Source: Pedobacter aquae | Lineage (GTDB): Bacteria > Bacteroidota > Bacteroidia > Sphingobacteriales > Sphingobacteriaceae | Direction: 5' to 3' | Length of the DNA: 64,000 nucleotides | Assembly (NCBI RefSeq): GCF_008195825.1 | Contig: NZ_CP043329.1 | Coordinates: forward strand, 2,728,001 to 2,792,000 | Shown here: positions 40,760 through 58,304 of the stretch, piece after piece | How positions within the stretch are numbered: the stretch's first letter is position 1 | Layout: each line of letters begins with the position of its first letter | Notes under the pieces: generated by a model | Databases searched by the model: none | What the model saw: the letters and a program-made list of their open reading frames with translations, nothing else | What the model was told of the DNA's origin: nothing | Program-made: the position numbers and the translations under genes

Positions 40760-43700
40760 TTAGAAATTTTGCAAAATAGCTGCGTAATACGTTGTGCCAT
40801 CATAAATAATGGTTACAATATCAGTTTTACTAGCCCCAGTTGTTATTGTAGGTATAGTACCCCGCTCCATTTCCAATTTGCAGGAAAAGTTACTGTTTTA
40901 GAACCAGTTCCGTCTTGTGTAAACTCTATAATGTAAGTTCCGGGAGTTGGATTTGTAAAAGACAGCGTACTAATATTAGTCCCTAAAGTAACTTGAAATA
41001 AGTTTCCATCAGATAAATTAAGCGTTGTTGTTGCCGCCGCTGCAACAGTTGGCGCTGTAATGGTATATTTTTTGGCTGTTACGCTACCTGCAACACCTAC
41101 ACCACCATTAACTACTAATGCTCCTGTGGTAGTACTAGTTGAAGCTGTTGTAGGTAAGACTGATACTTTACCAGGCGCAATTTCAAAAATTGAAGGCGCA
41201 ACATTATTTGCAGTAGCTATACGGAATTTTAGAGTTGATATACGAGCTGGATTAGTAGTACCCTCATCTGGGAAATCATTAAACATCCCTGTATTTCTTG
41301 CCCAATCACCTCCTATAAAAGAGAATCCAACTGCCTCATTGTAAGTACTTCCAGCTGCGGCTCTCATTGCAGTCGCTGTTGGCGCCGCCCAAGTAGGCAA
41401 ACCGCTGGCTAGGGTTAATACTTGTCCATCTGACCCTTTCCCTAATCTTGTTCCTGTACCGCTGGTTCCACCATAGATGATATCGCCTGAAGCAGTCATC
41501 GGAGATAAAGCATCAAAAGCAGCCGCTTTAGTAGTTGCATTAGTACCACCATTAGCGATTGATAATGTACCAGTAACACCAGTAGCTAAATTTGTTGCGG
41601 CTGCAGCAGGTGCTGCAGTACCATATCCTTGCCCAACATTCCAATAGTATGTAGAGCCATTATAATAAAAACTAACAATATCTACAGCATTACCTGCCGT
41701 TGATAAACCAACAGTAGTTGTTGAAGTAGAGCCTAATACTCTATGTGTACCTGAAGGTAATGTTAGAGTAGCGCCACCGCCTGCAGGTTGTGTTACTACT
41801 AATGTACCATAGGTACCGCTTGCTGGTGCAGAACTAAAAGCTAAAGTGCTATTTCCTGTTAATGTTACCGAAGCATTTAACCCTTTAGCTGGATCCCATG
41901 TAATGGTAGAGCCTGAAGGACTTATTGGGTTTGGCGTTGAAGCATAAATAGGTGAAGTAACCGTTCCGGTAAAGGTTGGTGAAGCTAATGGTGCTTTTGC
42001 ATCTAAAGCAGTTTGAGTAGCCGTTGAAATTGGTTTACTTAAATCTGTAGTATTATCTACATTACCTAAACCTACCATGGTTTTTGTTATACCTGATACT
42101 GTTCCAGTAAAAGTTGGTGAAGCTAATGGCGCTTTTAAAGCTAAGTCTGTATTTGATGCTTTTGCATCTAATGCTGTTTGAGTAGCTGTTGAAATCGGTT
42201 TACTTAAATCTGTAGTATTATCTACATTACCTAAACCTACCATAGTTTTTGTGATACCTGATACTGTTCCAGTAAAGGTTGGTGAGGCTAATGGTGCTTT
42301 TAAAGCTAAAGCAGGTACTGTTGGAGATTCTGCACTTCCTGCTAAATCACCTGTTAGTTTAATAATGCCTTTAGTAGAACCATCAGCAGTTGGCACCCCT
42401 CCTGATGTAAAAGAATTATCTACATACTGTTTAATCGCTTTTACAGTTGGGTATTTATCATCAGAACTAGCATCCTCTGTAATATCGGTTGATTTATTCG
42501 ATTTATCTTCTTTAGTTAACTCTGCTGCTTTTGCTCTATTCTCTTCAGCCACAATTGCATCGGCATTAGCTTGCTCTGCAGCTCTTGTTATTTCATTTGA
42601 AATTGCAGTTGAATTATCAGACTCCGCCAATTTAGCTCTAGTTTCTTCAGCTGCAATTGCATCGGCATTAGCCTGCTCTGCAGCTTTTGCTCTTGTTATT
42701 TCATTTGAAATTGCAGTTGCATTAACTTCTAAACCAGGTACCTTTGGTAAATCTGCAGTTCCACCTAAATCTCCCGCTAATTGTATTTTGCCTTTAACTG
42801 CAACACTAGCATCCGCTAAAATAGATCCATCAGCACCAGCTGGGCCTTGTGGCCCGATAGGTCCTGCTGGACCAGTTTCCCCTGTTTCTCCTTTGTCTCC
42901 TTTTAATCCTTGTGCACCGGCTACTCCATCTGCACCTGCTGGACCTTGCGGACCTGCTGGACCAGTTGCTCCTGTTTCTCCCTTATCTCCTTTCAATCCT
43001 TGTGGACCTTGTAGACCGATAGGGCCAGCTGGACCTTGAGGGCCTGTATCTCCTTTTATACCACTTCCTACTGAAGCGAAGGTATTATCTACATAACTTT
43101 TAACAGCTTTTTGTGTTGGATACAATACATCGCTTGTTCCTAAAGCAATAGACGAAGACTTATTAGCTATATTCTCTTTAGTATCTAGAGCAGTTTTTGT
43201 TGCATTACTTACAGGTTTATTTGCATCACTGGTATTATCAACATTACCTAAACCTACTTTTGATGGACTTATTCCAGATGCTATTTTAACATCTGTTATG
43301 GCTCCATCAGCTAATTTAACTGTCGTGATATTTCCATCACTTACTGATGCATTTTCTGAGAATAGCGCATAAGGAACAGACATAAAGGGCTGCTCACTAA
43401 TCTTCGTATAAGAAGCACATGCTCCTGTAGTATTTAAGCTTACTACCAATTTCTTGTTTCCTAAAGACCAGCGGATTTTATCAAATGCCGATGCATAACC
43501 TCCAGTTTTAGTTCCTGTTCCAATCATCAGGTTAACCATACCAAACATATCTGTTGTTGTTTGTATAGATTCTTGATATTCTACTTGTGATGATCCATCA
43601 ACAATCTCAAAAAGCATACAAATACCTTTATTGGCTAGAGGAGCACTAGGAATATCTGTACCAGGAGCTGATAAACCTTTTGGGTTTAGAATAACCGCTT

Positions 43701-57648: not shown

Positions 57649-57734
57649 TTCCATAGGTTGAAAAACAAATTGAGGTAGATTTTAATAGTGGTCCCCGCGG
57701 GAATCGAACCCACATCTAAAGTTTAGGAAACTTC
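57649..57734. repeat. 86-bp direct repeat, copy 1 (tRNA-Arg 3' part plus trailer)
   Basis: This 86-bp segment recurs at 58035-58120 with one mismatch (57696 versus 58082). It spans the 3' half of tRNA-Arg and about 40 bp of trailer, ending at the ATGGAA that is the start of the GIY-YIG ORF in the other copy. The two copies bracket that ORF. Confidence 0.9.
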
Positions 57735-57796
57735 CCTGCCTGCCGTTGAGTAGGTCTGTTTAACGGCAGGTAGATATTCTTATCCGTTGAACTACG
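57689..57796 (-). pseudogene. Disrupted tRNA-Arg copy with a 40-nt hairpin insertion
   Basis: The T arm, anticodon arm (CCU) and most of the D arm match the intact tRNA at 58075-58146. A 40-nt insert sits between the D arm and the anticodon stem and can fold as CCTGCCGTT pairing with AACGGCAGG around a 14-nt loop. One extra T lies in the D arm. The 5' acceptor strand is replaced by the end of the GIY-YIG ORF, so the acceptor stem cannot form and the copy is probably dead. Confidence 0.8.
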
Positions 57797-58040
57797 TAAG
57801 CAATGATTTTAGAAATTCCTTACCAATGCCACTCTTATAGTACTTTTCTTTTTTTCTAGCAGAATCTCTGCCTTGTACCTCCTCAAAATATAATAATGTC
57901 CATGGTCTAAATCCCTTTGTTGATTTAGTTTTACCACTGTTATGCTCATGGATACGCTTATCTAAGTCACCACTAAAACCAACATAAATTCTTTTATCCT
58001 TTGCACTTATGAGAGCGTAAACAAAAAACTTATCTTCCAT
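57792..58040 (-). CDS. GIY-YIG endonuclease-domain protein
   Basis: 82 residues, a minimal GIY-YIG domain of the YhbQ/UPF0213 type. The two tyrosine strands are FVYAL (6-10) and RIYVGFSGDL (17-26), Arg29 is in place, HNSGKTKSTKG and RPWTLLYFE follow, and the metal-binding Glu is at 65 (ARKKEKYYK). The ATG lies 35 nt downstream of the intact tRNA-Arg, inside the repeated trailer. The TAG stop is the TAG of a damaged tRNA copy's TAGTTC. Its C-terminus therefore ends at the tRNA junction. It may be a selfish or repair nuclease; association with repeats hints at the first. Confidence 0.85.
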   Translation of the reverse strand: MEDKFFVYALISAKDKRIYVGFSGDLDKRIHEHNSGKTKSTKGFRPWTLLYFEEVQGRDSARKKEKYYKSGIGKEFLKSLLT

Positions 58041-58120
58041 AGGTTGAAAAACAAATTGAGGTAGATTTTAATAGTGGTCCCGGCGGGAATCGAACCCACA
58101 TCTAAAGTTTAGGAAACTTC
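58035..58120. repeat. 86-bp direct repeat, copy 2 (tRNA-Arg 3' part plus trailer)
   Basis: Partner of 57649-57734, 85 of 86 identical, 386 bp apart. It contains the first codons of the GIY-YIG ORF and the 3' half of the intact tRNA. Confidence 0.9.
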
Positions 58121-58146
58121 TATTCTATCCGTTGAACTACGGGACC
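58075..58146 (-). tRNA. tRNA-Arg (anticodon CCU)
   Basis: 72 nt on the minus strand. The acceptor GGTCCCG/CGGGACC pairs fully with discriminator A, and CCA is not encoded. The D stem is GTTC/GAAT, the anticodon stem GAAGT/ACTTT with loop TTCCTAA (anticodon CCU), and the T arm TGGGTTCGATTCCCG. It is the only complete copy in this cluster and would read AGG codons. Confidence 0.93.
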
Positions 58147-58169
58147 TAATTTAATATTTGTTTTTTTGT

Positions 58170-58304
58170 ACCCCACAGTCTAAAGTTCAAGAAACTTCCC
58201 TACCTAACGGCAGGCAGGCCTACCTAACGGCAGGCAGGCCTACCTAACGGCAGGCAGGCCTACCTAACGGCAGGCAGGTATTCTATCCGTTGAACTACGG
58301 GACC
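58170..58304 (-). pseudogene. Disrupted tRNA copy with four 20-nt hairpin repeats
   Basis: The 5' half (GGTCCCGTAGTTCAACGG, then ATAGAAT) equals the intact tRNA-Arg. An 80-nt insert follows at exactly the same site as in the other damaged copy, then an anticodon arm GAAGT-TTCTTGA-ACTTT with anticodon CUU instead of CCU. The T arm and 3' acceptor are degraded (about 58170-58180). Not expected to be functional. Confidence 0.8.
58199..58278 (-). repeat. Four perfect 20-nt tandem repeats
   Basis: The unit on the minus strand is CCTGCCTGCCGTTAGGTAGG, four identical copies. Each unit folds by itself as a 7-bp stem (CCTGCCT with AGGTAGG, one G-U pair) and the hexaloop GCCGTT. Related sequence in the other damaged tRNA shows this is one repeat family. 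Confidence 0.92.

Follow-up and report, generated by a model that had tools for sequence, protein, structure and literature searches.

A probable family of minimal mobile elements: GIY-YIG nuclease genes embedded in bacterial tRNA genes, with hairpins in the surplus tRNA copies

tRNA genes are used as targets by integrative elements and by group I introns, both of which keep a working tRNA. Small palindromes are known to invade bacterial genes or to be spread by a helper enzyme, the examples being the palindromic elements of Rickettsia and the REP/RAYT system. In the cited portions of the published account, SegB of phage T6 is a free-standing GIY-YIG enzyme encoded beside tRNA genes that cuts inside tRNA genes; it prefers RAWTSGAAC, a motif present at 23 of the 83 mapped cut sites and not strictly required, and its activity is required for tandem amplification of the tRNA-segB unit (PMC13096335). 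Mitochondria harbour mobile hairpins (yeast GC clusters, fungal double-hairpin elements and sponge hairpin elements), described in the cited parts of two reports as short multiplying palindromes that occur in tandem and in tolerated parts of RNA genes (PMC4478555, PMC2800124); a helper role of intron endonucleases has been proposed for the yeast GC clusters (PMC4478555).

The elements described here resemble SegB of T-even phages in having a GIY-YIG gene by tRNAs, tandem units of tRNA and nuclease, and microhomology shared by the start of the tRNA (5′ end) and the 3′ end of the nuclease gene, but SegB is a phage gene, and the cited portions of its account mention no hairpin-interrupted tRNA copies such as are found here (PMC13096335). 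Unlike the mitochondrial hairpins, those of the present elements occupy fixed positions of the tRNA, in copies tied to a single nuclease family.

Anatomy of the tRNA-Arg locus and its relatives

The window is the whole stretch of 64,000 nucleotides from Pedobacter aquae (genome G000) that was analysed. On its minus strand, the locus consists, in order, of a 5′ tRNA-Arg fragment with four hairpin units, a short spacer, the intact tRNA-Arg(CCT), host flank, an 82-amino-acid GIY-YIG open reading frame (ORF), a 3′ tRNA-Arg copy with a 40-nt hairpin, and host flank again. Its features are as follows.

58170..58304, minus strand: 5′ fragment of tRNA-Arg, covering nt 1 to about 52, with an interruption following nt 26; its start is the start of the relative's tRNA
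58199..58278, minus strand: insert of four perfect 20-nt hairpin units, from sequence and folding
58074..58146, minus strand: intact tRNA-Arg(CCT), the sole Arg(CCT) among 45 tRNAs found genome-wide
57792..58040, minus strand: 82-aa GIY-YIG nuclease ORF, with its stop codon TAG inside the tRNA-derived sequence of the next unit
57688..57797, minus strand: 3′ tRNA-Arg copy without about the first 5 nt, interrupted after nt 26; its end is the end of the relative's tRNA
57735..57774, minus strand: insert, 40-nt hairpin made of an inverted pair of diverged 20-nt units
58035..58135, minus strand: direct repeat copy 1, the 3′ part of the intact tRNA with its host flank, 93% identical to copy 2
57649..57749, minus strand: direct repeat copy 2, the 3′ part of the broken tRNA with the same host flank

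The original prediction had described one intact tRNA-Arg and two units with inserts at the same junction, namely four perfect 20-nt units in one and a 40-nt inverted form of the same sequence in the other. All of these are present, and each insert follows tRNA nt 26 (locus L254); what had been overlooked is the GIY-YIG ORF and the 101-nt direct repeat, whose copies lie 386 bp apart. The 20-nt unit forms an 8-bp hairpin of -9.9 kcal/mol and the 40-nt insert folds with -15.5 kcal/mol, and in each case none of 200 shuffles was as good. The two interrupted units fall short of whole tRNAs: both are truncated, and the Rfam tRNA model at E≤10 reports the intact tRNA-Arg and neither interrupted copy. 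The upstream unit carries substitutions in the anticodon loop and is without the 3′ acceptor strand (one alignment of it begins at nt 6 merely since the searched stretch began there; the unit itself runs from nt 1), and the downstream unit aligns to tRNA nt 6 to 73, its first nucleotides being replaced by the end of the ORF. Functional tRNAs with extra helices are ruled out for the window by the truncation of both copies.

A scan of the window at Rfam gathering thresholds returned tRNA only, with no group I intron ribozyme, and TIGR01453 scored 23.6 bits, below its cut-off of 56.05. Between pyrC and metG, the GIY-YIG gene is the only ORF of at least 60 aa, so that neither an integrase gene nor a Y1 transposase beside the palindromes was found there. 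The locus is unlike tRNA-targeted integrative elements and tRNA group I introns in lacking an integrase ORF and an intron match, in its size of a few hundred bp and in the hairpin-marked fragments that it leaves. It is unlike the Rickettsia palindromic elements and REP/RAYT in that no Y1 transposase accompanies the hairpins and in that these sit in broken tRNA copies and not in functioning genes. Elsewhere in the window, a near-perfect tandem repeat with a 165-bp period and 1.9 copies lies at 41992-42309, and elsewhere in the genome a 112-nt tRNA match of low score (35 bits; G000:C1:3386428-3386539) is Leu-like by eye and possibly carries an insert.

An empty site is seen in relative G013, the MetG end of which is 96% identical and which has one tRNA between near-identical flanks. 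The downstream (right) flank in G013 matches that of the window's 3′ copy at 400 of 400 nt, and the upstream (left) flank is that of the window's 5′ fragment, from which it differs over about 150 nt by a single substitution and a single 15-nt gap; between those flanks, the window exceeds G013 by 544 bp. The place of the host tRNA now holds a broken copy at each end, with the full tRNA and the nuclease gene between them. Host flank sequence recurs behind the intact tRNA, so that part of the structure is a local duplication. Of 30 loci read, among them that of the window, 23 have a tRNA-Arg(CCT) near the end of metG. As read by eye, G004 has the same order as the window and related hairpins at the same 26/27 site; G001, G002 and G014 have another nuclease subfamily and hairpins in the D-loop (between AAC and GGAT), with a further hairpin in the T-loop (between TTC and GATTC) in G014; and G005 has a lone 3′ remnant with a T-loop hairpin, no nuclease gene being seen in the stretch examined. 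A separate observation concerns the tRNA-Arg(CCT) genes L175, L176 and L177 (of G011, G013 and G009), which show paired acceptor-stem changes, GGTCCCG/CGGGACC versus GGTCTCA/TGAGACC. Such paired changes among close relatives could reflect incoming copies that replace the tRNA gene.

The host genome has 14 matches to PF01541, 11 of them beside tRNAs. Eight of these accompany the two tRNA-Val genes, and Arg(CCT), Ser(GGA) and Ser(GCT) have one match each; the remaining three of the 14 are L061, treated below, and two longer reading frames (613 and 287 aa). At the Val site (L060, G000:C1:2471500-2478500), seven units of GIY-YIG gene and tRNA-Val fragment stand in tandem with a 358 bp period and identical listed proteins; an eighth unit lies apart, and the array adjoins two intact tRNA-Val genes. 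All eight units end in a tRNA-Val fragment in which the anticodon arm is replaced by the hairpin TCCCGATATATAATCGGGA, and the tandem array is interrupted by a 316-aa ORF that, we assume, resembles a transposase. The stretch of G009 examined has no element at the Val site, G013 has one remnant that lacks the GIY gene, and G000 has the eight GIY genes, seven in tandem; occupied and empty alleles of one site are seen at both the Arg locus (G000 versus G013) and the Val locus (G000 versus G009). The Ser(GGA) and Ser(GCT) copies each follow a 5′ fragment of tRNA-Ser with hairpins. The Ser(GCT) element is also present in G011 and G013 (90 and 92.5% identity), and the hairpin in its anticodon loop is single in G000 and G011 and doubled in G013. 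This difference between orthologous elements argues that hairpin units multiply in place.

Recurrence across genomes and positions of the hairpins

The generality of the arrangement was assessed by a protein-similarity search in which tRNA information was not used: 84,980 species genomes were scanned with four nuclease proteins, giving 499 stretches and 318 relatives, the best 80 of which were kept for analysis. A partial tRNA copy was called at an alignment score of at least 36, and a hairpin insert at -4 kcal/mol or better. Among these best 80 of 318 loci, a tRNA was present within 1300 nt in 76 and within 100 nt in 72, a partial tRNA copy in 67 and a hairpin insert in 60; three of the four loci without a tRNA reach a contig end 32-78 nt past the match. 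Exactly one intact tRNA of the given anticodon stands on the locus strand in 75 of the 76 loci with a tRNA, and two in the other. The ORF precedes the tRNA in 68 of the 76 and follows it in eight. In 57 of the 68 ORF-first loci, the end of the nuclease match falls in the interval from 25 nt before the intact tRNA to 10 nt inside it, which makes one transcript likely; where the ORF stands immediately ahead of the tRNA, the two would probably be transcribed from the old tRNA promoter. In L128, L129, L149 and L165, the GIY-YIG C-termini appear to run in frame into the downstream tRNA gene.

Hairpin-interrupted copies were found in 51 of 65 loci from Bacteroidota, 2/2 from Chlorobiota, 1/2 each from Ignavibacteriota and Omnitrophota, the single loci of Caldifarciminota, Shapironibacteriota and Yanofskyibacteriota, and two of three unassigned loci; the single loci of Planctomycetota, Levyibacteriota and Magasanikiibacteriota had none. 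Searches with two further subfamilies found matches in 167 and in 191 genomes of a sample of 296 from Bacteroidota, the two sets overlapping. From these genomes, a second set of 60 loci was fetched and 55 were analysed, among them two of the window's own genome (L254 and L260); L248, L255, L267, L273 and L287 had no central match and were left out. In this set, a tRNA lay within 1300 nt in 47/55 and within 100 nt in 34/55, with a partial copy in 40/55 and a hairpin insert in 22/55, and the tRNA preceded the ORF in 36 of 47, opposite to the usual order of the first set. The low number of hairpin inserts is explained in part by arms being replaced rather than interrupted: among 13 loci of the second-set type read by eye, a tRNA arm was wholly or largely replaced by a hairpin of other sequence in ten and partly replaced in two, one having no copy. 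The window's protein gave no match at 1e-5 by tblastn in 50,697 phage records, nor any match to plasmids at the same threshold. Assembly collapse, which had been raised as a possible source of the repeats, is unlikely, since the genome is a single contig and the same anatomy recurs in many other assemblies.

The hairpins take up particular positions in the copies. In the 80 loci, an insert lies inside a stem in 3 of 71 locus-site combinations, compared with 49% of all boundaries, the loci being related and not independent; in the second set, the figure is 3 of 24. The last position of the D-loop is the commonest site, 51 of 63 inserts following GGATA and 46 falling between GGATA and GA. T-loop inserts, repeats included, fall between GTTC and GA in 12 of 14, and the rejoined flanks match GTTCSAWTY in 9 of 14. 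In tRNA-Ser, five inserts lie inside the anticodon by ARAGORN labels, one of them ambiguous by a base. Partial copies retain stems and lose loop or anticodon sequence. Where they span nt 15-28, these surplus copies are interrupted between nt 8 and 33 in 65 of 69 cases, the other four being uninterrupted, and yet an intact tRNA stays in each of the 76 tRNA-bearing loci.

These positions bear on two proposals made in the original prediction. The first, that the inserts would add helices while sparing the other arms, holds in so far as stems are avoided; the carriers, however, are broken copies and not working tRNAs. The second, that a shared junction with different inserts points to a site-specific process, finds support in the recurrence of preferred sites (GGATA before GA, GTTC before GA, and the Ser anticodon), but different inserts are not the same as independent events. 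Both inserts of the window are built from one 20-nt unit, and such units multiply in place, which undercuts the case for separate insertions. The 26/27 site may be inherited with the element lineage, as it is also found in G004 (L186, by eye) and in Pedobacter psychrophilus (L094), whose nuclease is the closest neighbour of the window's nuclease in the tree.

The nuclease and a homing-type explanation

The window's ORF scores 58.8 bits against PF01541, for which the curated cut-off is 22.6. Among 143 proteins, Y8 is conserved in 142 and Y19, R29, H33 and E65 in all 143; the two Tyr, the Arg and the Glu (Y8, Y19, R29 and E65) presumably have the catalytic roles. Values of dN/dS were computable for 12 of 16 named pairs (one was skipped and three were undefined) and range from 0.05 to 0.47, which argues that the gene is under selection. 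In a profile search of solved structures, the closest were UPF0213 (1e-11), which we take to be COG2827/YhbQ, and, more weakly, SLX1 (0.001), which differs from the proteins here in being a larger, structure-specific nuclease; intron-associated endonuclease 1 was found at 0.0045. No report of a tRNA association of UPF0213 or SLX1 appeared among the literature matches listed.

Properties of the loci were mapped onto a quick nuclease tree, in which 81 of 134 inner branches are weakly supported, and compared with label shuffles, which ignore relatedness: tRNA isotype required 26 changes (shuffle mean 60.3, minimum 57 of 200), hairpin class 5 (mean 20.0, minimum 17 of 200), orientation 16 (mean 40.0, minimum 33) and insert site 25 (mean 37.3, minimum 34). 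By this tree, nuclease clades follow tRNA isotype, whereas the cited portions of the SegB account report no isotype preference (PMC13096335).

On the observed anatomy, empty sites, hairpin positions and conservation, we favour the explanation that the locus is a free-standing GIY-YIG homing-type element which targets a tRNA gene, keeps one tRNA, and leaves surplus copies in which a hairpin interrupts or replaces the probable cleavage site; we hold this to be reasonably probable. In the mechanism that we infer, the nuclease would cut tRNA genes at a segment that depends on its lineage, i.e., the D-loop, the anticodon loop or the T-loop; repair against the element-bearing copy would install the element and could amplify it in tandem; and the hairpin would destroy the cut site in the surplus copies, which would thereby become uncuttable. 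The family is widespread, and its members are minimal and probably mobile, with the GIY-YIG gene embedded in a tRNA gene; in most cases the partial tRNA copies have a hairpin that either interrupts a conserved tRNA segment or takes its place. SegB, in the cited portions of its account, is the nearest experimental precedent, and the reverse complement of its preferred motif is GTTCSAWTY, the T-loop sequence interrupted by nine of the 14 T-loop hairpins (PMC13096335).

Several observations count against the homing-type explanation: hairpins occur alone, 4 of 69 spanning copies are uninterrupted, inserts were found in just 22 of 55 loci of the second set, and the motif preferred by SegB is present at no more than 23 of its 83 mapped cut sites. 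In addition, known homing enzymes carry an added DNA-binding domain, and the proteins here, at about 80 aa, have none. Simple target immunity also fails to explain the survival of the intact tRNA, since that gene keeps the uninterrupted sequence. It is possible that the intact tRNA is spared through rare expression of the nuclease, through a need for flanking sequence, or through nuclease action on another structure.

Alternative explanations and the meaning of the elements

The hairpins are also found away from the nuclease. The 20-nt unit occurs 17 times in the host genome at up to three mismatches (the reversed-pattern control gave 0), and it is not scattered at random, an outcome that the original prediction had allowed for, as 12 of the 17 copies occupy, by eye, one position within a single dispersed repeat. 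A repeat of about 300 bp, dispersed in at least 12 copies over the host genome (L005-L009, L011-L017), has the palindrome at the same internal place in each copy. The exact palindrome CCTGCCTGCCGGCAGGCAGG is present in 26 of 198 Bacteroidia genomes, with up to 43 copies in one. When one locus from each of the 26 genomes was considered, a tRNA was within 500 nt in two (7 and 43 nt away), and a GIY gene was within 500 nt of the stand-alone palindrome in none (8 queries, E≤1e-5). Thus hairpins also live apart from the nuclease, in which they are like the yeast mitochondrial GC clusters as described in the cited part of the report (PMC4478555). Palindrome count and PF01541 count per genome, compared by eye, show no obvious link. 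Within the host genome, the GIY-YIG gene of L061 (G000:C1:2665500-2669500) lies away from tRNAs, inside palindromic-repeat arrays in which some repeat copies carry a CCTGCCTGTCCGGTAGGCAGG hairpin insert; L302 of G013 is 93% identical. This hints at a second connection between GIY genes and palindromes.

One alternative is that the GIY-YIG nuclease recognises hairpins, by structure or as palindromes, and mobilises them as RAYT does REP, tRNA copies being favoured for their exposed loops. The arrays of L061 fit this two-component mobility, as do the preference of inserts for loops, the tracking of the nuclease tree by hairpin class, and the position of UPF0213 proteins and, weakly, of the structure-specific SLX1 as nearest solved relatives by profile. 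However, none of the 26 stand-alone palindromes has a GIY gene nearby, the two counts show no obvious link between genomes, and the hairpin classes, which are coarse, may reflect no more than inheritance along with the element. We regard this alternative as unlikely.

The hairpin might instead act in RNA, keeping the leftover tRNA half of a shared transcript from folding or from competing with the good tRNA. Silencing of this kind would suit the abutment of nuclease match and intact tRNA in the 57 ORF-first loci, and copies that keep stems and lose loop or anticodon sequence. Base pairing in the hairpins gives no clear sign of selection on an RNA strand: G-T pairs exceed A-C pairs by 10 to 4 when weighted by occurrence, in favour of silencing, but 12 distinct 20-nt hairpins give four of each, and counted in that way the matter is unclear. 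A hairpin placed in a loop would, moreover, leave a competing cloverleaf able to form, and near full-length surplus copies, which seemingly need no silencing, bear hairpins as well (L147, L161). We find silencing at the RNA level quite improbable. Neutral decay, in which GIY genes duplicate tRNAs and common mobile hairpins then pile up in the useless copies, is already disfavoured and very improbable: the same palindrome is indeed found at many other places and units do multiply in place, but the near-universal interruption of spanning copies (65/69), the recurrence of positions in several phyla (46 of 63 D-loop-end inserts between GGATA and GA) and the replacement of whole arms by hairpins of another sequence stand against it, and chance from 17 unit copies per 3.85 Mb would not give such presence and positions.

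The homing-type explanation remains the one that we prefer. Should the hairpin turn out to belong to the mechanism, the elements would form a new class, beyond free-standing homing-type elements. Tentatively, and with somewhat more doubt than belief, we propose a new class of bacterial mobile element in Bacteroidota and several candidate phyla, in which a lone, isotype-specialised GIY-YIG nuclease of 80 aa would invade a tRNA gene, keep or replace the working tRNA, and have a hairpin exactly in the recognition segment of the surplus copies, so that nuclease and hairpin would make up one self/non-self system. Among the matches listed in the open-licence PubMed Central literature, none described GIY-YIG elements embedded in tRNA genes of bacterial chromosomes, and none described tRNA copies interrupted by hairpins; in the main text of the 2006 survey of the GIY-YIG superfamily, the part of that source drawn on here, COG2827, YhbQ, Bacteroid, hairpin and genomic context are all absent (PMC1564403). 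The element with hairpin-split tRNA copies looks undescribed before.

Small GIY-YIG genes are common in Bacteroidota, and, if the reading is true, many of them would be tRNA parasites with a readable target. Such genes are usually annotated without function. The position of the hairpin would show the cut site of each enzyme and so provide natural, testable pairs of nuclease and target. The same reading would account for broken tRNA copies that tRNA finders skip, and would supply a mechanism by which tRNA genes are split, tandemly multiplied or replaced by foreign ones. The elements would thereby allow a test of the way in which selfish genes may come to occupy essential ones.
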